From positions 866 to 20,252 of the forward strand of contig MGSU01000021.1 of the NCBI GenBank assembly GCA_001799195.1: a DNA stretch of 19,387 nucleotides, written 5' to 3'. The position numbers were made by a program, and so were the translations under genes. Under the pieces are notes generated by a model. It saw nothing but the letters and a program-made list of their open reading frames with translations. It made no database searches and was not told the DNA's origin. The stretch's first letter is position 1, and each line of letters begins with the position of its first letter. This document shows positions 671 through 19,387 of this stretch, one piece after another. This stretch comes from Deltaproteobacteria bacterium RIFOXYA12_FULL_61_11. GTDB lineage: Bacteria; Bdellovibrionota_F; JAHFAK01; YA12-FULL-61-11.

Positions 671-3421
671 ATGAAATGCCTGTTATTGCTCCTACCTCTC
701 CTCTTCATATTGGCCTGCGAGGACGCTGCCGAAGACGCCCCTGACGCTTCACCCACCGCTCTCGAGGACGACACCCCAGAGCGCCGCAACCTGCACGAAC
801 ACGACTTCCACAAGGACTCGGAGCTGCGAGCGAGCCTCGGCGACCTGGTAGTCCTGCACCTCGAACGCGAGGGAACCCACGAGGGCGACAGCGGCGGAGA
901 AGGCATTGACCACATCCCGTACACCTTCCACCGCGACGTGCAACACACGGTCTGCTTCTCCGGAGAGGAAGAGGACGGGCATCACGCGATCCTCCGAGAC
1001 GAGACCGGCGACGAGGTTCTCGCCGTGAAGGCCGGAGGCTGCACCACGGTGACCTTGCCGGCCGGCAAGTACCTCAAGGAAGTCCACCACGGCGACAGCT
1101 CCGATGACGCTTCCCACCGAGTAGTCTTCGTGCAATCCGGGCTCTCCCGTCGGCATTTCGAGCACCATCCGGTCGAGGAAACCCCCGACCCGGCCACCCG
1201 TTTCAAAGAACTGCGCGAGATCATGGCCGAGCGCTACCCGACGGTAAAACCTCTCCGCCAAACTCCTGGCGTCTGCGCGGCCAGCGAGAACCGGCCTGCA
1301 AACGCCCTTAACCTCAAGACCGGCGAAGTCGCCGTGTTCCTGGCCAACACCGGGTCGGGAACCGGAGCAACCCCGTGCAAACCGGCGTCCGGCACCATCA
1401 AGGTCTATAAAGGGGGCTGCGACCAGGTCGGAGCACAACTCGCAGGCGTGTCCGTCGGCCCGCGCACCCAGGTCGTGGTCTTCGACACCGGGAATTATTC
1501 CGGCAGACTCCAGTCCTACCGCTCCGAGAGCGTCAACGACGCGGCGACCTTCTGCTTCTCCGCCGACCATATCACGAGCGCTCAACCCTCCCTCGCGGTC
1601 TCGACCATCCGCACTACCGACGAGGTCACCTGCAAGGTCGAGAGATCCGGCCATTATTGTATCTGCGGCTATGGACCCTGCTATCTCGGTTGTCGGGTCC
1701 AGGAGGCGAACAACGAGACGGTCTGGGGTAACCACACCGACATCTTCGTTCCCGGTACAACTGTTGTGACCAATCCCGGCGAGGTCTTGCTGATCGGGAA
1801 CGAGCTCGATGCGCACTGCTGTGCCTCGGCGCATGTGCTCAAGGAGAGCTGCGCCGATCTGTCGCTCATCGCCTGGGACGAGAAAGCGACCGGTTTGGTC
1901 CTGGGCTCGGCCAACACCTTCGCCATCGCCTACGACGATGCCCGGTTCCGAGGAGCCCGGCACACCCAGGTCGACGCCGCGGGCTGGGTCCCGGGGCACT
2001 GGGATCCGGTGACCAATGCTTATGTACTCTTGTCGAAGAACCCGGCCGACACCATCAACGTCGAGGCCGGCAAGGTCTCGTCGATCAGCGTTTACACCAC
2101 GGAGCACTACAGCCAGGTCACCACGATCGACACCCATGCCTGCTCCAACTGTAATTTGCGAGGGGTGGACTTCAGCAACAAGAACCTCAACAATGTCATT
2201 CTCTTCAACGCTGACCTGACCGGCGCCGACCTCACCAATACCCAACTCGAGGGGGCCGATCTCCGCCACGCCATCCTGAAGGGAGTGAAAGCCAGCAACG
2301 CCAATTTCAACGGCGCCCTGCTCGACTACGCCACCATAGGCCTGACCGACGACGAAGCCAGGACCATGGCCCCTGCGAATTTCTCGGGCGCCTTCATGAA
2401 GAACGCCCGACTCTACAACGTCAATGCCCGGGGGGTGAATTTCCAGAATGCCCACTTCTACGACGACGGCAGCCTGTCGGCCACGCTGGCAAAAGCCCAG
2501 TTGGACAAGGCCGATTTCTCGGGCGCGGTCCTGGTCGGCACCACCTTCGACGAAGTAACCAGCATGAGCGGCGCGAAGTTCAACAACGCGGTGCTGATCA
2601 ATGCCTTTTTCAAGAAGGTCCAGCTCGGCGACAACAACGGCAACAATCAAGTGTCCTTCACCGGCGCTCAACTCTACGGTACGAATTTCTCGAACACCTC
2701 CCTCGATTTTTCGGACCTTACCAATGCCAAGGTCGCCTTCTTTGCCAACACGGCCATGGTCACCAAGATCACGAGGTTCGACTCCGTGAACCGTCGCTAT
2801 GTCACCATGGGCGAGGCGGTCAGTTACAACGCCAACTACCCGTCTCTCTTGCCCTTGACCACCGGCAATACCACCTGTCCCGACGGTGGGCGGGGTATCT
2901 GCGACGGCAACGGCGGGGAGAGTTATGCGAGTTGTCCCCAGGATTGCACGCAGAACCTCTCCTGTACCCGTCACCAGAACTGCATCTCGAAAACCTGGAC
3001 CGATTCCTATTACGTGGGCCGCTGGCAATGCAATTCGGGCCTCTGCTCCATGTGCAAGACCGGGAATCAGTCCTACAACTGCCAATGCGGGGACACGATC
3101 TGCAATATCGAACTCGGAGAATCGCCCCTGACTTGTCCGGATGATTGCGCGGGAAGTCACTTTCAGTATGATTTCGACGAGTGTGGCCACCCCTCCCACT
3201 GCGTCACGAAACCCTGGCCCTCCTCCCTCAGCGGGAAGTACGGACGCTGGACCTGTCCGATGGACGGCGCCGGCTACGGCACCTGTACCGCGGTAGAGTC
3301 CAATTCATGCGGTGACGACCTGTGCGATATGAACGGCCGATGGATGCCCAAGGATGTGCCGGCCTATGTCGGCTACCGCGTCAGCACCGGCCAGACCCTC
3401 GGCGGCTGTGGCTGCGACTGA
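671..3421 (+). CDS. Lipoprotein with pentapeptide repeats and Cys-rich C-terminal repeats
   Basis: This is a 916-residue exported protein. Residues 1-16 form a type II signal (MK, a Leu run, then ILAC with Cys16), so it is predicted to be lipid-anchored. Two beta-type segments (around 265-285 and 415-435, with FDTGNYSG and YDDARFRGA) weakly resemble crystallin-like or Ig-like folds. Residues 491-690 are pentapeptide repeats of the A(D/N)LxG type, for example ADLTGADL and EGADLRHA, which form a right-handed beta-helix; the array is interrupted near 555-570 and 595-610. Residues 736-915 hold Cys-rich units: CGDxxC...GES...CPxDC type (736-759, 806-826, and a degenerate copy from 880) alternating with a CxxHxxCxxKxW...GRWxC module (765-795 and 838-872). 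A GAGGA ribosome site lies 5' of the ATG. The function is unknown; a disulfide-stabilised surface or adhesion role is an inference from the extracytoplasmic repeats. Confidence 0.88.
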   Translation: MKCLLLLLPLLFILACEDAAEDAPDASPTALEDDTPERRNLHEHDFHKDSELRASLGDLVVLHLEREGTHEGDSGGEGIDHIPYTFHRDVQHTVCFSGEEEDGHHAILRDETGDEVLAVKAGGCTTVTLPAGKYLKEVHHGDSSDDASHRVVFVQSGLSRRHFEHHPVEETPDPATRFKELREIMAERYPTVKPLRQTPGVCAASENRPANALNLKTGEVAVFLANTGSGTGATPCKPASGTIKVYKGGCDQVGAQLAGVSVGPRTQVVVFDTGNYSGRLQSYRSESVNDAATFCFSADHITSAQPSLAVSTIRTTDEVTCKVERSGHYCICGYGPCYLGCRVQEANNETVWGNHTDIFVPGTTVVTNPGEVLLIGNELDAHCCASAHVLKESCADLSLIAWDEKATGLVLGSANTFAIAYDDARFRGARHTQVDAAGWVPGHWDPVTNAYVLLSKNPADTINVEAGKVSSISVYTTEHYSQVTTIDTHACSNCNLRGVDFSNKNLNNVILFNADLTGADLTNTQLEGADLRHAILKGVKASNANFNGALLDYATIGLTDDEARTMAPANFSGAFMKNARLYNVNARGVNFQNAHFYDDGSLSATLAKAQLDKADFSGAVLVGTTFDEVTSMSGAKFNNAVLINAFFKKVQLGDNNGNNQVSFTGAQLYGTNFSNTSLDFSDLTNAKVAFFANTAMVTKITRFDSVNRRYVTMGEAVSYNANYPSLLPLTTGNTTCPDGGRGICDGNGGESYASCPQDCTQNLSCTRHQNCISKTWTDSYYVGRWQCNSGLCSMCKTGNQSYNCQCGDTICNIELGESPLTCPDDCAGSHFQYDFDECGHPSHCVTKPWPSSLSGKYGRWTCPMDGAGYGTCTAVESNSCGDDLCDMNGRWMPKDVPAYVGYRVSTGQTLGGCGCD

Positions 3422-7532: not shown

Positions 7533-8276
7533 TCAGCGCACCGGGACGTCGAACCCTTTGTCCGGATAGGGTTCTCGCTTCAGGGAATAGTGCCACCATT
7601 CCTTCTTGTAGTTCTCGAAGCCATGCTGTTCCATCAGGGTCAGGAGCAGCAGGCGCAAGGCGCGCTGGTTTGGACCGACAAGACAGCTTTCTGTCGTGGC
7701 CGCTGGGTGCAGGCAGTCGTAGCCGGTCCCCAGGTCGAGCGAACCGTCCGCTGCTCTCCCCGAGGGCGGCGCGGTACAGTCTCCCCCGGCGCTTCCCGCT
7801 TGGGTAGGACCGGGAGGGAGGGGGACCAAGGTCAGGTCCACGGTGCTTCCCCGGGAATGCGCCGATCGGTGCGCGAAATACCCCTGCCGGAACAACTCCT
7901 CCCGCGGCACCGTCGGATGATACTCGGGGTTGAGTCTTGCCCCTTCCTTCTCTTGTGCCCAGCGCGAGAAATCCCGCACCGCCCGCTCCGGCCGGTAGCA
8001 ATCGTAGACCTTCAACCCCAGCCCGTAGGGCCGAAGCGCGGCCTGAACCCCGGCCAAGGCTTCCACCGCGGCACGGGTAAGGAGGCAACGATTGACCTCG
8101 TACCCGTCAACCGGCCGACCGAGCAGGTTGCGGCTCCCCGCGTAGCGCAGCTCCACCACCAACCCCGGTAACGCGGCACCTGCATCGACGAAATCCTTGG
8201 GTAAAGTCTCTGAACCGAAAACCGGACCGACGATCGCGGACAGGAGCAGCCAGAGCACGGTCAGGGCGTTCTTCAT
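7533..8276 (-). CDS. VanX/DdpX-type D-Ala-D-Ala dipeptidase (peptidase M15D)
   Basis: The 247-residue protein has an N-terminal signal peptide (MKNALTV, hydrophobic core, cleavage near VFG-S), so it acts in the periplasm. The zinc dipeptidase signatures are present: NRCLL, YDCYRP with Arg95, SAHSRGSTVD giving zinc ligands His140 and Asp147, and EWWH with catalytic Glu226 and ligand His229. The seven-residue His-Asp and three-residue Glu-His spacings are those of VanX. The family cleaves D-Ala-D-Ala, in peptidoglycan turnover or vancomycin resistance. No vanHA-type ligase or dehydrogenase is nearby, so turnover is more likely than resistance. Residues 156-200 carry a Gly/Cys-containing segment (Cys167, 188 and 198) at the usual variable loop. 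A GAGG site precedes the ATG at a proper distance. The frame stays open well upstream, but that stretch overlaps the neighbouring gene and has no sensible coding character. It lies 10 bp after the membrane-protein gene. Confidence 0.9.
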   Translation of the reverse strand: MKNALTVLWLLLSAIVGPVFGSETLPKDFVDAGAALPGLVVELRYAGSRNLLGRPVDGYEVNRCLLTRAAVEALAGVQAALRPYGLGLKVYDCYRPERAVRDFSRWAQEKEGARLNPEYHPTVPREELFRQGYFAHRSAHSRGSTVDLTLVPLPPGPTQAGSAGGDCTAPPSGRAADGSLDLGTGYDCLHPAATTESCLVGPNQRALRLLLLTLMEQHGFENYKKEWWHYSLKREPYPDKGFDVPVR

Positions 8277-10879: not shown

Positions 10880-10911
10880 CTGATCGGCACGGCAGCGTGC
10901 GGGGCGATCAG
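10880..10911 (-). other. Strong hairpin spanning the diguanylate cyclase stop codon
   Basis: CTGATCG (10880-10886) pairs with CGATCAG (10905-10911) and GCACG (10887-10891) with CGTGC (10896-10900) around a GCAG loop, leaving a four-G bulge. The TGA stop of the cyclase (10908-10910) lies in one arm. On the minus strand the hairpin is followed by AATAGAGTTCC, which is not a T run, so it is more likely an mRNA end-stabilising or pause element than a classical terminator. Confidence 0.45.
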
Positions 10912-11825
10912 AGCACGGTAGGCACGGTACTGAAGGCAACCCGGTTCTTCCCCGCCCGTTTTGCGCGATAGAGGGCTCGATCCGCATGCTCGATCAGCTC
11001 GTGGGGTGAGGAGACGGAGTGGTCACAGATGGCAACCCCCAGGCTGATGGTGATAGGCAGGTCGCCAACACCAAGTTCCATGGCCTTCACCCGGATGCGT
11101 TCCGCGATGGTCCCGACTTCCACGGCACTGCTGGTGAAGGGGAGGACCACGACGAACTCCTCTCCTCCGAAGCGGCAGCAAATATCGGAGTCCCTGACCT
11201 GTTGTTTCAGCACCTTGGCGAGGTCAATCAGGATCTGGTCCCCGGCTTGGTGCCCGTACCGGTCGTTGACTGCCTTGAAGTCGTCGATGTCCAGGAGAAT
11301 GATGGAAACCCCGGCCCCGTAACGGCGGTGACTGCGGAATTCCAGCTCGAGGAGCTCGTAGAAGCTGGTGTGGTTGTACAGCCCGGTCATCCTGTCGCGC
11401 ATGGCATTCTTCGCGATCTCCACGAGATTCTCTTCGGAAATGACCGTGGGAGAAATGAAATCCTTGTTGATGTTCGAGAAAAAATCCAGGGTGGCCACGG
11501 TGATGCGGATGTTCCGTTTGAGGATCTCCGAGAGCAGGTGTTTGTGCTTGAGGACTTTCCCCCACAAGGTCTCGGCGATCTCTGGTGCGAAGTAGTGGTG
11601 AGAGATCGCATAGAACAAATCGGAGTAGAACAGTAAGCCTCGTACGGTTTGTTGCTCGTTGATTTCTCTCTTTTCTTCCTCGGTCATCGACCTGTCCCCG
11701 GCAAAGGCGGAAACGAGTTCCACGCTCATGCCCTCGGGCGTCGTGGTCCGGCGCAACCGATCGATGTTGCATTCATCGTTCGGCTTGCGAGGGGACCGTT
11801 CGTCTTTATCCTTCGAGGTGCTCAT
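10908..11825 (-). CDS. GGDEF diguanylate cyclase
   Basis: This 305-residue soluble protein makes c-di-GMP from two GTP. The GGDEF domain starts at DRMTGLYNH (about 144-152), has the metal-binding LLDIDDFKAVND, and the active site GGEEF at 220-224. The inhibitory site RDSD (211-214) sits five residues before it, so product feedback should be intact. Residues 60-135 form a helical region (FYSDLFYAISHHYF, EIAETLWGKVLKHKHLL, TLDFFSNI) of unknown type that probably holds the sensing or dimerising function; there is no membrane segment. The first 55 residues are charged and disordered-looking. The ATG overlaps the end of the pirin-like gene by 20 bases and GAGGG lies upstream, so translation is probably coupled. 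It is the third gene of the leftward radical SAM operon. Confidence 0.94.
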   Translation of the reverse strand: MSTSKDKDERSPRKPNDECNIDRLRRTTTPEGMSVELVSAFAGDRSMTEEEKREINEQQTVRGLLFYSDLFYAISHHYFAPEIAETLWGKVLKHKHLLSEILKRNIRITVATLDFFSNINKDFISPTVISEENLVEIAKNAMRDRMTGLYNHTSFYELLELEFRSHRRYGAGVSIILLDIDDFKAVNDRYGHQAGDQILIDLAKVLKQQVRDSDICCRFGGEEFVVVLPFTSSAVEVGTIAERIRVKAMELGVGDLPITISLGVAICDHSVSSPHELIEHADRALYRAKRAGKNRVAFSTVPTVL

Positions 11826-12759
11826 GGGCCCTCTTCGGACATACTACGGTCATGAGACCATGACCTTGGATGAGTACGAGGAGAATGCTCGGGTCGATTT
11901 CTCCGATCGGATCCACCTCGGGTTCCTCTCCGTGGAGGTGGTGCAGGATACTGGTCTGGGGGTGGTTCTTCCTCTCCAGGAAAACCTCGGGAGTGACCGG
12001 ACCCTGGGGTTCCGTGTGACACGTGTGCCCGGTCATCGTTTTCCAGGGGCTGGAAGATGCAAGGCCCACGTCGATGAGCAACAACTCGGTGGGGCCTTTG
12101 GCTGTCAGTGAGACCAAGGGTTCATTGACGAAGCAGATCCCATCCCCTTGGGTCAGGACGAGGTCATGCACGATCACCGTGCCGAGCACGATATACAGCC
12201 AGGCGTTCCGGCTCGGCGCGAGCTCATGCATGAGGTGGTGGCCCGACTCGAGGATGGCCGAGTAAACGACGGCATCCTGGTGGATACACAGCGAGCCCTT
12301 GCGTCCGTCCTGGGAAGCGATCGCGCAGAGGAGATTCTTGCGTTGGGCTGCCGTGAAACGTTTCAGTTCGTGAGCCCGCTCGATCCCGACCTGGGAGGGC
12401 AACAGGGAGATCCGGAACAGGTGTACCCCATCGGAGCGGGACACACTCGTCTCCTTGCATTCGATGCCGACGCCGGTGGACAGGTGCTGGAACTCGCCCG
12501 CTTCGATAACCCCGGAAGTACCCGTGGAGTCTTTCTGGGACAGGGAGCCCTGATAGACATAGGTAATCGTTTCGGACTCTTCTTCGGGCGTTGAGCCGGT
12601 GCTTTCTCCCGGGCTCAGCTTCATTTCGTCGAAGGCCAGCAAGGAACTGATACCATCGGAGATAGGTCCCCGATGATCCTGGGCAAAGAACGAATGCCAG
12701 AGTTCCTGGTTCCCTTGTTGGACATGGCGGCGCTGGTTGTTCCGGAGCACGGTAAGCAT
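11806..12759 (-). CDS. Pirin-like bicupin protein lacking the usual metal ligands
   Basis: This 317-residue cytosolic protein follows the YhhW/pirin fold: ITYVYQGSLSQKDSTGTSG, VIEAGEFQHLSTGVGI, VHLFRISLLPSQVGI, then a second cupin with GRKGSLCIHQDAVVY and GPTELLLIDVGL (to about residue 232). Against E. coli YhhW, aligned from memory, the ligands His57, His59, His101 and Glu103 become Thr57, Glu59, Cys101 and Glu103, so canonical Fe binding and quercetinase activity are probably lost; a different metal site using Glu59, Cys101 and Glu103 cannot be excluded. Residues about 233-317 are an extension absent from YhhW, with His-rich HHLHGEE and hydrophobic ILLVLIQGHGLMTVV. The ATG overlaps the radical SAM stop as TAATG, with AAGAGG upstream, and its own 3' end overlaps the cyclase start. 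The role is unknown; a sensor or scaffold is possible. Confidence 0.88.
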   Translation of the reverse strand: MLTVLRNNQRRHVQQGNQELWHSFFAQDHRGPISDGISSLLAFDEMKLSPGESTGSTPEEESETITYVYQGSLSQKDSTGTSGVIEAGEFQHLSTGVGIECKETSVSRSDGVHLFRISLLPSQVGIERAHELKRFTAAQRKNLLCAIASQDGRKGSLCIHQDAVVYSAILESGHHLMHELAPSRNAWLYIVLGTVIVHDLVLTQGDGICFVNEPLVSLTAKGPTELLLIDVGLASSSPWKTMTGHTCHTEPQGPVTPEVFLERKNHPQTSILHHLHGEEPEVDPIGEIDPSILLVLIQGHGLMTVVCPKRAHEHLEG

Positions 12760-14435
12760 TAGTTCGGACCTCTTGAGATGCCGGGCTGTTCGGACCGGGG
12801 AGTAGATCGGGAGTACGAGGCTGTTCGCTCGTCCGTGGCCGGAACCTCCACCAGGTTAGCGGCGGCAGAAGCGGGACGGAGAGGTTCCCGCTCGAACCCG
12901 AACGTCTCGGGAACCGCCTCCCGTTCGAGTTCCGCAAGAGCCTGCCTGAGCCGGGGTACCACGTGCTCGCGCGTGTAAATAATGAGGTGCTCGCCCTGGA
13001 CCGCATGGACGATGGCCTGCCTAACCTGCCTGCGGCCCTTTGGTAACGCTTTGGCCAGCAGCCGCCAGAAATACCCGCGACGTTGACTGAGGATACCGAT
13101 GTGCCAGAGCGCACCCAGCAAGGCTCTCACCTCGCTGAAGGTCGAGGGGCGCGTCCCGGAGAGGTTCCCCACGCGGTCGAGGTAGGCCTCGCAGCGGCCG
13201 TAGAACTCCTTCGGCGAGCACTGCCACTCGAGGAAGGCCCCATACCCCCGCAGCAGCGTCGCTTCATCCATCCTGGGGGTGAAGTTCGGGCGGGTGAACG
13301 GGTCTCCGGTCGAACGGTGGCGCACGCGGCCCTCGGCTTGGAGCCGGCGCCAGAGCGCTGTTCCGGGCAGCGCCGTCAGGATGCCCACCATGGCGAGCGG
13401 CATGGGTTGCCGGGAGAGGAAGTCCCGTTGCATGGCGAAAATCTCGGGGCCATCGCTGTCGAACCCGACGATGAAACCGCCCATGACCTCGATGCCCGCT
13501 CGGGTGATCGTAGCAACGGCCTCCGACAGATCGAACCGGAGGTTCTGGTGCTTGTTGGCCTGTTCGAGGGCCGCGAGCGAGGGGGTTTCGAGGCCGAGGA
13601 AGACGGCCGAGAACCCGGCCTCCACCAGATCGTGCAGGAGTTGAGGATCTGCCGCCAGGTCGACACTCGCCTCGGTATAGAGCTCGAAGGGGTAGGCACG
13701 TTCGATTTGCCAATCGCGCAGCAGGGGTAGGAGGCGTTTGACCGCGGGTTTATTGCCGATGAAGTTGTCATCCACGAAAAAGATCGTGCCCCGGTAACCC
13801 ATGCGGTAGATGGCGTCGAGCTCATCGAGGACTTGCAGGGAGGTCTTCACTCTCGGCTTGCGGCCGAAGATCTCGACGATGTCGCAGAACTCGCATTGGA
13901 ACGGGCAACCCCGGGAGTACTGCACGCTCAACGAGGCATACGCCGACCTTTCGAGGAGGTCGAAACGCGGAACGGGCACGGTCGTCAGATCGGGGAAGTT
14001 CGTGGGGGGGTCGAGGACCCTCCCCTTCCCGGGTCCTTGCGTCAAGGCCCACAACAACTCCTCGATCCTACCTTCGGCCTCACCCCGGAACACGACCTCC
14101 GCCTCGAGGAACAGCTCCGGGCTCGTCGTGGGAGCCGGGCCACCGACTGCCACGGGTACCGCCCGGGCATGGGCGCATGCGATGATCTCGTGCAGCGACT
14201 CTTGTTGGATAAGGAGTCCTCCCGTGAAGACCACCTCGGCCCAGCGGAGGTCCTCGTCGGTGAGTTCTCGCAGATTGAGGTCGATCAGCCGCAAGGACCA
14301 GTGTTTCGGCAGCAGCGCCGCGATCGTGAGCAGGCCGAGCGGGGGCAAGGACGCGCGTTTGCCGATGAGGCGCAGACCATACTGGAACCCCCAGTAGGTG
14401 ACGGGAAAGCGGGGATAGACGAGCAAAACGTTCAT
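12759..14435 (-). CDS. B12-binding-type radical SAM enzyme, DUF4070 / HpnP-like
   Basis: The 558-residue protein has an N-terminal cobalamin-binding-type Rossmann domain (1-130: MNVLLVYPRFPVTYW, PPLGLLTIAALLP, RLIDLNLREL, VAVGGPAPT), then a radical SAM core with CPFQCEFC (Cys177, Cys181, Cys184) that binds the 4Fe-4S cluster. The following FCDIVEIFGRKPR, FFVDDNFIGNK and GFIVGFDSD, and the C-terminal helical region (about 400-500), fit the DUF4070 group that includes hopanoid C-2 methylase HpnP. It probably methylates or rearranges an unactivated carbon of a lipid or secondary metabolite; the substrate is not deducible. The last 40 residues are low-complexity. AAAGGA precedes the ATG. It heads a three-gene set coupled by overlaps and is preceded by a sigma-54 promoter. 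No hopanoid cyclase gene is in view. Confidence 0.9.
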   Translation of the reverse strand: MNVLLVYPRFPVTYWGFQYGLRLIGKRASLPPLGLLTIAALLPKHWSLRLIDLNLRELTDEDLRWAEVVFTGGLLIQQESLHEIIACAHARAVPVAVGGPAPTTSPELFLEAEVVFRGEAEGRIEELLWALTQGPGKGRVLDPPTNFPDLTTVPVPRFDLLERSAYASLSVQYSRGCPFQCEFCDIVEIFGRKPRVKTSLQVLDELDAIYRMGYRGTIFFVDDNFIGNKPAVKRLLPLLRDWQIERAYPFELYTEASVDLAADPQLLHDLVEAGFSAVFLGLETPSLAALEQANKHQNLRFDLSEAVATITRAGIEVMGGFIVGFDSDGPEIFAMQRDFLSRQPMPLAMVGILTALPGTALWRRLQAEGRVRHRSTGDPFTRPNFTPRMDEATLLRGYGAFLEWQCSPKEFYGRCEAYLDRVGNLSGTRPSTFSEVRALLGALWHIGILSQRRGYFWRLLAKALPKGRRQVRQAIVHAVQGEHLIIYTREHVVPRLRQALAELEREAVPETFGFEREPLRPASAAANLVEVPATDERTASYSRSTPRSEQPGISRGPN

Positions 14436-14527
14436 CGCGTGGGTCCTTTGTTTTCCGGCTTCGAGCCTGGGTAGGAACGAGAGAACAAGAACCCGGCACA
14501 GCGCGTTGCGGAATCAAACATGCTGCA

Positions 14528-14543
14528 AGCAAAATGTAAGCCA
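14528..14543 (-). promoter_or_regulatory. Sigma-54 (-24/-12) promoter for the radical SAM-pirin-GGDEF operon
   Basis: On the minus strand this reads TGGCTTACATTTTGCT. It has the invariant GG and GC dinucleotides ten bases apart and matches the conserved parts of TGGCAC-N5-TTGCW (TGGC and TTGCT). A start about 12 bases downstream (near 14517) gives a leader of about 80 bases to the ATG at 14435. A sigma-54 activator gene lies directly divergent, which supports a functional promoter. Confidence 0.75.
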
Positions 14544-14592
14544 AAAATAAATATCCCCAATAATCCCAATAGACAAATGATATTAACCATTC

Positions 14593-14602
14593 CCAGCGCT
14601 GG
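14593..14602. promoter_or_regulatory. Candidate activator-binding palindrome
   Basis: CCAGCGCTGG is a perfect 10-bp palindrome about 50 bp upstream of the sigma-54 -24 element, separated from it by an AT-rich, probably bendable stretch (14544-14590). That is where an enhancer site of a sigma-54 activator could lie, although usual sites are 80-200 bp away and paired. CGATCA at 14609-14614 and TGATCG at 14639-14644 form a weaker second dyad. Confidence 0.4.
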
Positions 14603-14653
14603 TATTGCCGATCAAAACGAGCTAGCGTCTTTTCATTCTGATCGAGGTATACG

Positions 14654-16333
14654 ATGCGTGTTGAAGAACTCCATCAGAAGGAGCTTCTCGAGTTGGATCC
14701 CGCCGGGGGCCTCCTCCGTTTCGCCGGGCAACGGGTCATCCTCATCGACGCCGTGGCCATGGGGCTCCTCCGTCACTATCTCGTGCATAACTTCGGCCTG
14801 CATGCAGCGCGCGCGGTTCTCACCCAGTTCGGTTTCGCTCATGGCTGGAGAATGGCGGCGGCCTTGCAAAAGGGCTACAAGTGGGACAACAACACAGACT
14901 GGCGCCGGGCGGGCACCCTCGTCTATTCCCTCGAGGGTCTCTTCCTCGCCCAACCCGGCAATGACGACCTCCTCTCGAAAGAAGGGGCGATGCTGCTCGC
15001 TTCCTACGAGGCAGAGCAACACCTCCTGCACTTCGGCCGTTCGGACTCGGCGGTCTGTTGGACCATCTGCGGCCTCATGAGCGGCTACGTCAGTCACACC
15101 GAGGGGGAGGAGATCTACGTTCTCGAAGACCGCTGCTTGGGCCTCGGACATGCGGCCTGCCACCTCCTGGGGCGCACGCGTGCAGAATGGGGCGAGGAAC
15201 ATGCAGGAGAGTTGGCCTACTTCGATGCCTTGCGTTTACAGGAGTGCCTCGAGGTTTCCCTCAGCAGGGTTACCGAGAGCTTGAAAATCGCGGAGGACAA
15301 GCTCCGGGCCCATAAAAAGGTCCTGGTCAGAGTGCTGAAGGACCAGGTGGATCCCCTGGGGCTCATCGCCAAGAGCCCCAAGATGCGGAACGTGGTGGAT
15401 CTCGCCCGCCGGGTGGCGAAGGTGGATGCCACCGTGCTCATCACCGGCGAGAGCGGCGCGGGGAAAGAACGCATTGCGAGGCTCGTCCATGACGAGTCCC
15501 CGCGGGCTTCCGGACCGTTCGTCGCGGTCAACTGCGCGGCGATCACCGAGACCCTGCTCGAGAGCGAGCTGTTCGGTCACGCGCGGGGGGCGTTCACCGG
15601 CGCGTCTTCCGATCGTCCCGGGTTGTTCGAGGCCGCCAACCATGGAACTCTGTTGTTGGACGAGATCGGAGAGGTGTCGCCGGGTATGCAGGTCAAGCTC
15701 CTCCGGGTACTCCAAGAACGCGAAATACGTCGGGTGGGGGAGAACAAGAGCCGGGCGGTGGATGTGCGGCTTCTCGCGGCCACCAACCGCGATCTCGCCC
15801 ACAGGGTCGCTGAAAACACCTTCCGGCAAGACCTCTATTACCGCCTCAAGGTCGTGGAGCTGAACGTGCCGTCGTTGCGGGACCGCAGGGACGACATCTT
15901 GCCGCTCGCCCGTCTCCTGCTTGCAAACGCGGCCGCGCGGATGGATCGTACGATCTCGGGCTTCTCCCCGAATACCGCGGATCAGCTCTTGCGGTACGAC
16001 TGGCCGGGCAACGTTCGCGAACTCGAGAACGCCCTGGAACGGGCCGTCGCCCTGGCGTGCGGCACGCGCGTGGAACTCGAGGATCTGCCCGAGGAGGTAC
16101 GGCAGGTGTGCGCGAAACCGGTGGTCACTACCGGCTCCGTACGAACGCTCGACGAGATGGAGAAGGACTACATCCTCGCCGTACTGGACCTCAACGGCGG
16201 GAACCAGACGCGCACCTCGCAACAGCTCGGCATAGGTTCGGCAACCCTCTACCGGAAGCTCAAGAAGTATGAGACCCTCGGTGAGGTGTTGCCCGAGAAA
16301 GGTGCTACTATGGTGCCGAAACCGGAAGCGTGA
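14654..16333 (+). CDS. XylR/DmpR-type sigma-54-dependent transcriptional activator
   Basis: The 559-residue activator has a complete three-part architecture. Residues about 15-180 are the XylR_N plus V4R ligand-sensing region, with the typical [31 protein letters not shown] and EWG; such domains bind small hydrophobic or aromatic effectors. A helical B-linker (about 190-230) follows. The AAA core has Walker A GESGAGKE (265-272), the sigma-54 contact loop GAFTGA (312-317), Walker [10 protein letters not shown] (332-340) and the [13 protein letters not shown] box (448-460). Residues about 496-540 are a Fis-type helix-turn-helix ([20 protein letters not shown]). It should activate sigma-54 promoters when its ligand binds. 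A GAGGT site lies before the ATG. It is divergent from the radical SAM gene with a sigma-54 promoter between them, and 12 bp upstream of a second radical SAM gene on its own strand. Confidence 0.95.
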
Positions 16334-16345
16334 GCGAGGCCCGGG

Positions 16346-17827
16346 ATGAAGATCGACGATTTCCTGCCGGCGCAGGTCGAGCGTTTGGCCAGGGAAAAGC
16401 GTCCGGTCGCCCTGCACGCCGACCTCGACCTGCTGTTGGTCAATCCCCCGCCCTGGATGCCCCTCACCCCGCCGCTCGGATGCGTGGCTTTGGCCGGCTA
16501 TCTGCTCGACCGAGGGCTCGGGGTCCAGGTCCTGGACCTCAACCTCGAACTCCTCTTGCAGCATCCCGAGCTGGCGACGCTGTGGCGCATGGAACAAGCC
16601 GCCGCGTGGGCCGAGGCCGAGCGCTCGGCGCAGCTCTTTTCGCGCCTTGCCCCTGCCGTGGAGGCGTGGGCGAGAGCGATTGTGCAGGCTGCTCCGCGCT
16701 GCCTGGGCTTCTCGGTCATGGGCGGGAAGCAACGCTTCGTGCGCGCCTTCCTGACTCAACTCTTAGAACTCGGCTATGAAGGCGGCGTGCTCTTCGGCGG
16801 GCCTGCCTGCATCAACTACGGTCTGCGGCAAGAGTTGGCCGCGCCGCTCGGGCGGCACGAACGGGTCGCCTTCGTGCTCGGCGAGGGAGAGGGAGCCGCG
16901 CTGCGCTTCCTCGACTCTCTGCGGAAGGGTAGGCCCGTCTCTACCGGCGAGGGCTTGTTGCTGCTCGGAGACGAATCCCCGGACCTGCGCCTGCCGACCG
17001 GCCACCTCCCCCTGGACGACCTGCCCCGGCCGCGCTTCGACCTCGTGCCCTCGCACGGCTACCTGACCGAGGCCCTGCCTCTGGAATGGAGCCGGGGTTG
17101 CGTCGGACGCTGCGCTTTCTGCGACGTGGCCACGATGTGGGGTGGCTTCCGGATCAAGTCGGCCGGGAAGCGGTTGGCCGAGCTCGAACACCTCGTCGGG
17201 ACGACCGGCACCACCGTGTTTACGCCGGCCGATCCTGCCCTGAACAGCGCCCGCCGACCGCTCTTGGAGCTCTGTCGAGCCCTCGTCGCCAGAGGTCTTG
17301 CGGTCACCTGGTCGGGACATGCGGTCGTCTCGAAGCTCTACACGGCCGAGGATTACCGGCTCATGCGCAGCGCGGGGTGCCGCCACCTGGAGTTCGGTGT
17401 GGAGAGCGGTTCGGACCGCGTGCTCGCGGCCATGGGGAAACATCGTACAGTCGCGGAAGCCGAACAAACCCTGCGGCTGTGTCACGAGTCGGGCATCCAC
17501 ACCACCCTCTATCTGATCGTCGGGTTCCCCGGCGAAGACCGCGACGACCTCGAGGCCAGCGCGGCCTTCCTCCGGCGCAACCGAGCCTGGATCGACTCGG
17601 TGCGGTCCGTCAATGCCCTCTATCTCCAGCGAGAGACCCCGCTCTGGGAGCGTCGAGGCAGCCTCGGTCTGGAGTTCGGCGGCGCCGAGAGCCACGAGGG
17701 ACATCACTGGAGCGTCGGCTCCAATACGTTGGAAGAAAGGCAGTATCGGGTGCGCCGGCTCCTCGAGGTGATCGACGAACTCGGTATCCCCTATCATCTC
17801 GCCGCGGGGCTGGACGAGTTCTCCTGA
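16346..17827 (+). CDS. Second B12-binding-type radical SAM enzyme
   Basis: The 493-residue protein starts 12 bp after the activator gene and is probably co-transcribed. Residues 25-190 are a cobalamin-binding-type domain (LDLLLVNPPPW, PPLGCVALAGYLLDRG, VQVLDLNLELL, VLFGGPACI, GEGEGAALRFLDSL), including a longer helical insertion at 70-115. The radical SAM cluster motif is CVGRCAFC (Cys252, Cys256, Cys259), followed by CRHLEFGVESGSDRVL and TLYLIVGFPGEDRDDLE, which are typical of the core barrel. There is no DUF4070-like tail, so it is not a recent duplicate of the radical SAM gene at 12759-14435. The reaction is unknown: methylation, methylthiolation or ring chemistry on a lipid or secondary metabolite are the family options. 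Its last 34 bases overlap the convergent phosphatase gene. Confidence 0.92.
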   Translation: MKIDDFLPAQVERLAREKRPVALHADLDLLLVNPPPWMPLTPPLGCVALAGYLLDRGLGVQVLDLNLELLLQHPELATLWRMEQAAAWAEAERSAQLFSRLAPAVEAWARAIVQAAPRCLGFSVMGGKQRFVRAFLTQLLELGYEGGVLFGGPACINYGLRQELAAPLGRHERVAFVLGEGEGAALRFLDSLRKGRPVSTGEGLLLLGDESPDLRLPTGHLPLDDLPRPRFDLVPSHGYLTEALPLEWSRGCVGRCAFCDVATMWGGFRIKSAGKRLAELEHLVGTTGTTVFTPADPALNSARRPLLELCRALVARGLAVTWSGHAVVSKLYTAEDYRLMRSAGCRHLEFGVESGSDRVLAAMGKHRTVAEAEQTLRLCHESGIHTTLYLIVGFPGEDRDDLEASAAFLRRNRAWIDSVRSVNALYLQRETPLWERRGSLGLEFGGAESHEGHHWSVGSNTLEERQYRVRRLLEVIDELGIPYHLAAGLDEFS

Positions 17828-18285
17828 CCTGGCCCCCGGGCGGCGATCAGGCCGTCCACGGCCCGGGAGATGATCGTGTAACAAGCCCGGTAGTGGAAAC
17901 TGCTCAAACCAAAGGGATCGGCGATGAAGGGTTCGGTCAGGACCCCCGGGGGCGCGTAGGAGCCGAGCAACTCGACCCGGCCCGAGAGTTCCGGGACCGC
18001 GGCGAGCAAAGCCGCGACGTGCTGCTCTTCCATACACAGGTAGAGCCCGGTCAGGTCCACGGTTGCTGCAAGGAAGGGTTGGGCGAGGTGCGTGGACAGG
18101 TCGACCCCGAACTCGGCCGCGACCTGCAACGCCGTGGCCGGTACTTCCAGACCGTGGTCGGCCTGGGTGCCGCAGGAAGCGACCGAGAGGTTGTTGCAGG
18201 TGGTCCCCAGGCGCAGGCGAGCATAGGCACCGGCGAAGGGACTGCGACAGATGTTCCCGGTGCAGACGAAGTGCCAGACGGTCAC
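17794..18285 (-). CDS. Low-molecular-weight protein tyrosine phosphatase-type protein
   Basis: The 163-residue protein carries the phosphatase loop VCTGNICRSP at the N-terminus, with nucleophile Cys8 and Arg14 in the C-x5-R-S arrangement, and the general-acid loop DPFG (Asp123). Length and layout are those of LMW-PTP; the arsenate reductase relatives share the fold, but the asparagine/isoleucine loop and the DP motif favour the phosphatase. The GTG at 18285 overlaps the aminotransferase stop as GTGA, so the two are translationally coupled; the frame open further upstream is the shadow of the aminotransferase gene. Substrates could be tyrosine- or arginine-phosphoproteins or a small phosphate ester. 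The last 15 residues (GPGQENSSSPAAR) are low-complexity and coded in the stretch that overlaps the convergent radical SAM gene. Confidence 0.9.
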   Translation of the reverse strand: MTVWHFVCTGNICRSPFAGAYARLRLGTTCNNLSVASCGTQADHGLEVPATALQVAAEFGVDLSTHLAQPFLAATVDLTGLYLCMEEQHVAALLAAVPELSGRVELLGSYAPPGVLTEPFIADPFGLSSFHYRACYTIISRAVDGLIAARGPGQENSSSPAAR

Positions 18286-19387
18286 GCGCCCGCCGCGACC
18301 AAGGCCTGCTCGAGGATGGCCAGGGCCTCGTCGAGCTCGGCCGGCGTCACCACGAGCGGAGGGGTCAACCGCAACACGCTCTTGCCGCATCCGAGCAGGA
18401 TCAACCCGCGCTTCAATGCCGCTGCAATGACTCTGTCCCTGAGGGCAACGTCGGGTTTCCGATCGGCCCCGGCCACGAACTCGATGCCTATCAGTAAGCC
18501 GAGCCCGCGGAGGTCTCCTACCCCCTTGCAGTTCGAGAGGATCCGGCGCAGACCCGCGAGGAGATAGTCTCCCATCCTGGCGGCATGGTCGACCAGACCT
18601 TCCTCGAGCAGGGCCAGGGTTTCCACCGCGGCGGCGCAGGCCACCGGATTGCCCCCGAAGGTCGAGGCGTGGGAGCCCTTGTCCCAGCACATCAGCTCGG
18701 GAGGGGCGAGCAGGGCTCCGAGCGGCAGGCCCGAGGCCAGGCCCTTGCCCACGGCGACGAGGTCGGGGCGGAAGCCGAAGTGCTCGCTGGCCAGCATTTT
18801 GCCGCTGCGGCCCATGCCCGTCTGGATCTCATCGGCCACGAGCAGGATGCCGTGCTTCTGGCAGAGCTCGGTGAGACCGTCGAAGAACTTCTTCGGCGGG
18901 ATGATATAGCCGCCCTCACCCTGGACCGGTTCGAGGAACAATGCCCCGACTTCCTCGGGTGGTACGGACGCGGTGAAGAGGGTTTCCTCGATGAAGCGCA
19001 CGCACTCGATATTGCAGTGATCGACCGTCTTGCCGTACGCGCAGCGATAGCAATTGGCATAGGGAACATGGCTGACGCCCGGTACCAGGGGAAAGAAGCG
19101 CCGCTGCTGGACCAATTTGCTGGCCGTGAGCGACAGGGCGCCCATGGTGCGTCCGTGGAAGGCGGAGTAGAAGGCCAGCATTCGGGGCCGGCCCGTCACC
19201 CAGCGCACCAGCTTGAAGGCCGCCTCGATGGCCTCGGTACCCGAATTGGTCAGGTACACCAGGCACGGTTTACCGGAGGGATGCAGGGTCGAGAGTTTGT
19301 TGCAGACCCCGCTGAAGGAGGCAAAACCGGTCGTCGTGCCCGGGAGATGGAGGAAGCGGTCGACCTGCTCATGCACGGCGCGGAGTA
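18282..19387 (-). CDS. Class III PLP-dependent aminotransferase (N-terminus beyond window)
   Basis: The frame is open at the window edge, so the N-terminal part (probably 60-100 residues) is missing. About 367 residues are visible. Class III features are YLTNSGTEAIEAAFKL (cofactor phosphate site), FHGRTMGALS, EPVQGEGGYIIPP, LLVADEIQTGMGRSG with the pyridine-nitrogen Asp, the Schiff-base Lys in AVGKGLASGLPLGA, and STFGGNPVACAAA. The NCYRCAYGK...DHCNIEC segment is seen in archaeal-type aminotransferases and amino-acid epimerases of this class, so GABA/ornithine transaminase or a racemase-like activity are all possible; the substrate cannot be fixed. It is co-transcribed with the phosphatase through a four-base stop/start overlap. 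Confidence 0.9.
   Translation of the reverse strand, partial: LRAVHEQVDRFLHLPGTTTGFASFSGVCNKLSTLHPSGKPCLVYLTNSGTEAIEAAFKLVRWVTGRPRMLAFYSAFHGRTMGALSLTASKLVQQRRFFPLVPGVSHVPYANCYRCAYGKTVDHCNIECVRFIEETLFTASVPPEEVGALFLEPVQGEGGYIIPPKKFFDGLTELCQKHGILLVADEIQTGMGRSGKMLASEHFGFRPDLVAVGKGLASGLPLGALLAPPELMCWDKGSHASTFGGNPVACAAAVETLALLEEGLVDHAARMGDYLLAGLRRILSNCKGVGDLRGLGLLIGIEFVAGADRKPDVALRDRVIAAALKRGLILLGCGKSVLRLTPPLVVTPAELDEALAILEQALVAAGA

Follow-up and report, generated by a model that had tools for sequence, protein, structure and literature searches.

Regulators of the XylR/DmpR type activate sigma-54-dependent promoters through a small-molecule sensor, and this sensor class is known almost only from the breakdown of aromatic compounds. 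HpnP, a B12-dependent radical S-adenosylmethionine (SAM) enzyme, and its relatives matter for another reason, as 2-methylhopane, their product, serves as a fossil marker. The role of the early HpnP relatives is an open question in the literature (PMC10697835). Here we analyzed a stretch of 19,387 nucleotides, referred to as the window, from contig MGSU01000021.1 of Deltaproteobacteria bacterium RIFOXYA12_FULL_61_11, which belongs to a genome of 4.64 Mb (342 contigs, 87% complete). It carries a gene for a XylR/DmpR-type sigma-54 activator (here the activator), divergent from three genes encoding an HpnP-like radical SAM enzyme (rSAM1), a pirin and a GGDEF protein, and followed by a gene for a second radical SAM enzyme (rSAM2). 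Taken together, the data make it fairly probable that the activator drives a sigma-54 regulon of stress and envelope genes, in which rSAM1 and a pirin without metal ligands form the core of the operon and GGDEF is a local add-on.

A sigma-54 promoter and a twin site between activator and rSAM1

The intergenic region 14436-14653 contains TGGCTTACATTTTGCT, which has a perfect GG-N10-GC and represents the sole exact match to TGGCNYN5TTGCW within the window. By comparing upstream regions across activator relatives a twin palindrome was found: two copies of ATCA-N3-TGAT are located about 21 bp apart near the activator start codon, with a divergent -24/-12 box at a fixed distance. In the window the spacing from the start of ATCAAAACGAG to the start of TTCATTCTGAT is 21 bp, and the twin site lies upstream of the promoter, 67 bp from the -24 box. 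The score of this composite element (twin site plus promoter) was reached by none of 300 dinucleotide shuffles, and the same outcome, no match in 300 shuffles, was obtained for most closer relatives of the activator whose upstream sequence was long enough. Gaps between the upstream activating sequence (UAS) and the promoter cluster at 65-67 bp and, approximately one turn longer, at 75-78 bp.

Scanning the activator and pirin loci for the composite element yielded ~35 sites in 618 kb, including some double counts from overlaps between the scanned loci, and the reversed sequence gave none; as the loci had been picked for holding the activator or its neighbours, this density is not a genome-wide rate. 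As background, 246 kb of the window genome gave no site, and 896 kb from other genomes gave two, both with the lowest score. The element recurs beside activator relatives in other phyla as well as ahead of other genes of the window genome, in which RpoN is encoded. Because promoter, twin site, conservation and RpoN are all present, predicted sigma-54 control of rSAM1, pirin and GGDEF by the adjacent activator is well supported, and from co-occurrence and site position we infer that the activator is the protein binding the twin sites.

A previous sequence-only reading of this DNA had described the five genes with their strands and junctions and a -24/-12 promoter facing the rSAM1-pirin-GGDEF set, and in these points it was borne out (Table 1); its proposed control of this set by the neighbouring activator is supported by the sequence. 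The rSAM1 stop and the pirin start share a TAATG overlap, pirin and GGDEF overlap by 20 bp, and 12 bp separate the activator from rSAM2. The Pfam matches of the activator were XylR_N (3e-23), V4R (1.5e-5), Sigma54_activat (2e-71) and HTH_8.

Table 1: Genes and predicted regulatory sites at the locus, in window positions.
Feature	Position	Strand	Basis
GGDEF (predicted diguanylate cyclase)	10908-11825	-	Pfam
Pirin, Pirin + Pirin_C_2 bicupin	11806-12759	-	Pfam, YhhW alignment
rSAM1, HpnP-like: B12-binding, radical SAM CxxxCxxC, DUF4070	12759-14435	-	Pfam
-24/-12 sigma-54 promoter TGGCTTACATTTTGCT, facing rSAM1	14528-14543	-	Motif match, composite scoring
Predicted activator site, promoter-proximal copy ATCAAAACGAG	14611-14621		Consensus ATCA-N3-TGAT
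Predicted activator site, second copy TTCATTCTGAT, just ahead of the activator ATG	14632-14642		Consensus ATCA-N3-TGAT
Activator, XylR/DmpR-type sigma-54: XylR_N + V4R sensor, AAA+ with GAFTGA, Fis-type helix-turn-helix	14654-16333	+	Pfam
rSAM2, second radical SAM enzyme	16346-17827	+	Pfam

Elsewhere in the window, a gene resembling low-molecular-weight phosphotyrosine phosphatases on plain reading of the sequence (17794-18286, minus strand) converges on rSAM2 with an overlap of ~34 bp and also overlaps a class-III aminotransferase gene. A lipoprotein-like protein of 916 residues with pentapeptide-type repeats is encoded at 671-3421 (plus strand).

A pirin without metal ligands and its pairing with rSAM1

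The window pirin aligned with YhhW (1tq5) over 229 residues (E 2e-38), the bicupin fold being assigned by sequence only. The YhhW ligands H, H, H and E are replaced by T, E, C and E, in agreement with the altered metal site proposed earlier, and quercetinase activity is not expected. Its C-terminal ~85 residues (11809-12063, minus strand) are absent from nearly all relatives, and the codon-position GC of this extension suggests that it is coding.

The ligands were surveyed in 64 pirin rows aligned with YhhW, which comprise the stronger pirin matches recovered as loci. Six clearly depart from HHHE, namely those of the window (TECE), G481 (YNRE), G533 (RRHE and HRRE), G051 (YRHD) and G451 (HAHE), and one canonical row (L122) reads HHHQ. 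The six metal-less pirins form one clade with a support of 100/100, for which the bootstrap had not fully settled. All five genomes with metal-less pirins carry the activator, although it is rare, being detected in 16 of 386 widely drawn genomes and, within the phylum to which G375 belongs, in 21 of 235. This phylum takes in metagenome-assembled genomes labelled Deltaproteobacteria, as loci L245 and L250 match the named loci L025 and L027. The composite element was found close upstream of four of the six metal-less pirins: in the window (via rSAM1), in G481, where the pirin (51% to that of the window) is directly divergent from the activator and followed by CsbD, in G451 and in G533 (contig C76). 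For the fifth (G533, contig C18), rSAM1 has a half site and a consensus -24/-12 box ahead of it. Of the 59 canonical pirin rows, only one locus showed the element within 1.5 kb (overlapping copies L200/L205), adjoining an activator.

The pairing with rSAM1 is retained in G533, in which the rSAM1 ortholog (68%) ends at 8037 and the pirin (46%) begins at 8034 of L233, resulting in a 4-bp overlap as in the window. G481 carries a partial rSAM1 ortholog (70% over 83 residues on the contig) ~9.5 kb away with its own twin site and -24/-12 box. These closer orthologs were found through the pirin; with rSAM1 as the starting point, no pirin or activator was seen beside its relatives in 80 named genomes or in a wide survey.

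Alternatively, only the divergent rSAM1 might be the real target, with pirin and GGDEF as downstream passengers and the rest of the regulon unrelated. This would fit the findings that the rSAM1-pirin-GGDEF trio as such occurs nowhere else and that activator neighbours vary widely between genomes. We nevertheless regard it as unlikely, as the restriction of metal-less pirins to activator-bearing genomes, the elements preceding four of them, the box and half site of the fifth and the overlap retained in G533 argue against it.

The activator sensor and the wider regulon

Orthologs of the activator were found in G375 (78%), G051 (73%) and G366 (64%), followed by lower identities; two copies close together in one genome were observed at L195 (G448) and at L192 (G475). 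The sensor is homologous to those of PoxR, MopR and DmpR (E 1e-18 to 1e-15). Alignment with MopR demonstrated that the zinc ligands C135, E158, C161 and C169 (three Cys, one Glu) are kept and invariant across 33 homologue rows, and that MopR His106 and Trp134 correspond to Tyr91 and Leu114 in the window activator. The roles of this His/Trp dyad in anchoring the phenol hydroxyl have been described (PMC10715001), and XylR also has a Tyr at the position equivalent to His106 (PMC7264223). Nearly all members of the close clade (at least 50% identity) have Leu at the Trp134 position, a few Val, and the 39-46% branch mostly retains Trp. Since Leu replaces the phenol-anchoring Trp, the ligand of the close clade is probably other than a simple phenol. 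The small-molecule signal suggested by the sequence-only reading may still hold: sensor fold and zinc site are present, but Leu occupies the position of the Trp by which MopR, PoxR and DmpR anchor phenol.

In the window genome, which was sampled in part for further targets, elements precede an operon of coiled-coil and DUF4398 lipoprotein genes and a PEGA/DUF11 surface protein gene on contig 134 as well as a pair of PRC-barrel genes on contig 335. DUF4398/OmpA genes likewise stand behind such elements in G533, G051 and G448. Further genes behind the element in other genomes encode SOD-Usp, a RelA/SpoT-domain protein, a YHS/P-type metal ATPase, DUF3309-MlaE, ice-binding adhesins, SnoaL-GST and glycosyltransferase-like giants, the latter being probable cyclic-glucan synthases. 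Very large proteins of this glycosyltransferase-like kind recur beside the activator or behind its sites at L231 and L191 (G451), L193 (G412) and L238 (G051). YceI genes lie behind the divergent promoter in the branch of more distant activators. Because of the genes behind the elements, we infer a regulon of stress and envelope functions rather than of aromatic breakdown. Literature searches on DUF4398 and V4R yielded no description of a matching regulon.

Activators of the distant branch with the phenol-anchoring Trp adjoin canonical pirins at L200 (5575-8660) and L234, and the canonical pirins beside this branch come with YceI or with a fused gene for an iron-containing alcohol dehydrogenase (Fe-ADH)/homogentisate dioxygenase.

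An aromatic-compound regulon, in which the activator would sense a phenol- or quinone-like compound and the pirin would act in its breakdown as a quercetinase-type dioxygenase, was also considered. Such a role would agree with the homology to PoxR, MopR and DmpR and with distant relatives that adjoin a canonical pirin with Fe-ADH/homogentisate dioxygenase (L200) or an outer-membrane protein of phenol-degradation type (L157). In view of the Leu at the hydroxyl-anchoring position in the window and nearly all of the close clade, the absent metal ligands of the window pirin and the failure to find a catabolic gene behind the sites in the window genome, it appears improbable.

The radical SAM enzymes and the proposed mechanism

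The GGDEF protein has a GGEEF active site and an upstream RxxD inhibitory site, as read in its translation (Pfam GGDEF 1e-43), and is a predicted diguanylate cyclase with a lineage-specific N-terminal half. For rSAM2 a clear radical SAM domain was detected together with a weak B12 domain (17 bits, under the Pfam cut-off), so that of the two B12-type radical SAM enzymes claimed in the sequence-only reading rSAM1 is confirmed and rSAM2 is doubtful in its B12 part. None of the 26 other genomes with an activator that were searched contained rSAM2 or the N-terminal half of GGDEF; by this distribution both are additions of the window lineage. A conserved five-gene cluster, the unit proposed originally, was consequently rejected, as the activator neighbours differ as well. 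What recurred in the neighbourhood search across genomes was the rSAM1-pirin pair and the link between activator and pirin, and not the trio or the five-gene set. Likewise, the proposed joining of a radical SAM modification to synthesis of cyclic di-GMP (c-di-GMP) would be a local combination inside the wider stress and envelope regulon.

Modification by both radical SAM enzymes of a ribosomally synthesized and post-translationally modified peptide (RiPP) to which the activator responds was another possibility, given that the radical SAM part of rSAM2 matches RiPP C-methyltransferase profiles (1e-26, well below the cut-off); as the gene set showed no recognisable precursor peptide, transporter or protease, and rSAM2 is not conserved with the other genes, it is very improbable.

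rSAM1 belongs to a family with hundreds of members. It clusters with Myxococcota/Deltaproteobacteria sequences (FastTree support 0.87-0.95 for nested clades and 1.0 for its pairing with the G533 sequence) and away from the single HpnP-type sequence available, that of Methylobacterium bullatum (34%), which we take to be HpnP from the known content of the genus. The HpnP content of the genus Methylobacterium is documented in PMC12583986. Plasmid searches for rSAM1 yielded only HpnP-like proteins without useful context, plus one HpnP-type sequence. Hopanoid C-2 methylation by rSAM1, through which the operon would remodel membrane hopanoids under stress, was set aside as highly improbable: rSAM1 has the three domains of HpnP (PMC10697835), but it was placed apart from the one HpnP-type sequence compared, no squalene-hopene cyclase match was obtained in the 87%-complete window genome or in G481, and deltaproteobacterial homologues without the cyclase, of unknown function, have been argued not to be hopanoid enzymes (PMC10697835). 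rSAM1 is HpnP-like and probably not HpnP. The window genome as a whole gave 38 matches to the B12 radical SAM query, an unusually high number (contigs C279, C22, C16, C336 and others).

Several observations weigh against an activator-driven stress and envelope regulon with rSAM1 and pirin at its core. Both copies of the twin site in the window are imperfect (6/8 and 7/8), and the genes of the activator relatives at L156, L160, L161, L191, L192 and L197 are not preceded by such an element. Directly ahead of rSAM1 in G533 stands one half site (UAS score 9), with a better pair located further upstream before SOD-Usp. In G051 a distance of 2.6 kb separates the pirin from the upstream element, which has the same strand and precedes DUF4398-OmpA genes. 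The stress and envelope theme is drawn from the annotation of neighbours. Finally, rSAM1 relatives (50-58%) from six genomes in which no activator ortholog was detected have neither pirin nor site, and the same holds for the loci of other relatives; therefore, rSAM1 can work without them.

For the activator-driven regulon we propose the following mechanism. The activator would be a one-component sigma-54 enhancer-binding protein that has retained the phenol-sensor fold and zinc site but controls stress and envelope genes instead of aromatic catabolism. Once the sensor is engaged by its ligand, the activator would assemble on the twin ATCA-N3-TGAT site at 14611-14642 and, using ATP, open RNA polymerase-sigma54 at the -24/-12 promoter, which lies 67 bp from this site, with rSAM1, pirin and GGDEF being made as one transcript. 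Since the twin site is located in the leader of the activator gene, binding would probably also restrict expression of the activator itself, as in XylR. rSAM1 and the metal-less pirin, whose genes appear to be translationally coupled, would form the conserved working unit. The role of the pirin, the substrate of the enzyme and the other biochemical roles are guesses: the pirin may act, without catalysis of its own, as a partner that binds the B12 radical enzyme or as a carrier for it, and rSAM1 may alkylate a component of the envelope, perhaps a lipid. In the window lineage only, the GGDEF protein would add a c-di-GMP output. More tentatively, the locus might belong to a horizontally spread sigma-54 regulon of at least three phyla, in which a repurposed phenol-sensor-type activator would control envelope and stress genes along with a two-protein module, made up of an HpnP-like B12 radical SAM enzyme and a metal-less pirin as its non-catalytic partner.

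These findings offer a concrete regulon and a testable DNA element for a sensor class otherwise tied to catabolism, and they connect a branch of the HpnP-like B12 enzymes, which are uncharacterised, with a partner gene as well as an inducing system. The pirin clade lacking metal ligands and tied to one regulator represents a clean case for non-enzyme roles of cupins. No match was found in the literature searched for a combination of pirin, sigma-54 and radical SAM, in line with the earlier statement that no such system was known; a known regulator class has here an unusual and apparently undescribed output.

Compared to the described systems, the activator shares with DmpR, XylR, MopR, PoxR and PheR the order XylR_N-V4R-AAA+-Fis helix-turn-helix, the four zinc ligands and palindromic sites upstream of a divergent -24/-12 promoter. 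It differs in the Leu at the Trp134 anchor, in the ATCA-N3-TGAT twins 21 bp apart and just 67 bp from the promoter, and in its predicted targets, which are stress, envelope and B12 radical SAM genes, whereas theirs are catabolic. With YhhW-type pirins (PDB 1tq5, 6uts) the window pirin has the bicupin sequence in common, but all metal ligands except the Glu are replaced; the pirin-like protein YhaK (2vec) is a more distant match. HpnP and the HpnP-like proteins (PMC10697835) have the same B12-binding, radical SAM and DUF4070 domains as rSAM1, including deltaproteobacterial relatives without hopene cyclase. In contrast to these, rSAM1 falls into a Myxococcota/Deltaproteobacteria clade of its own that does not take in the one HpnP-type sequence compared, and its gene is preceded by an identified sigma-54 element and coupled to that of a pirin.

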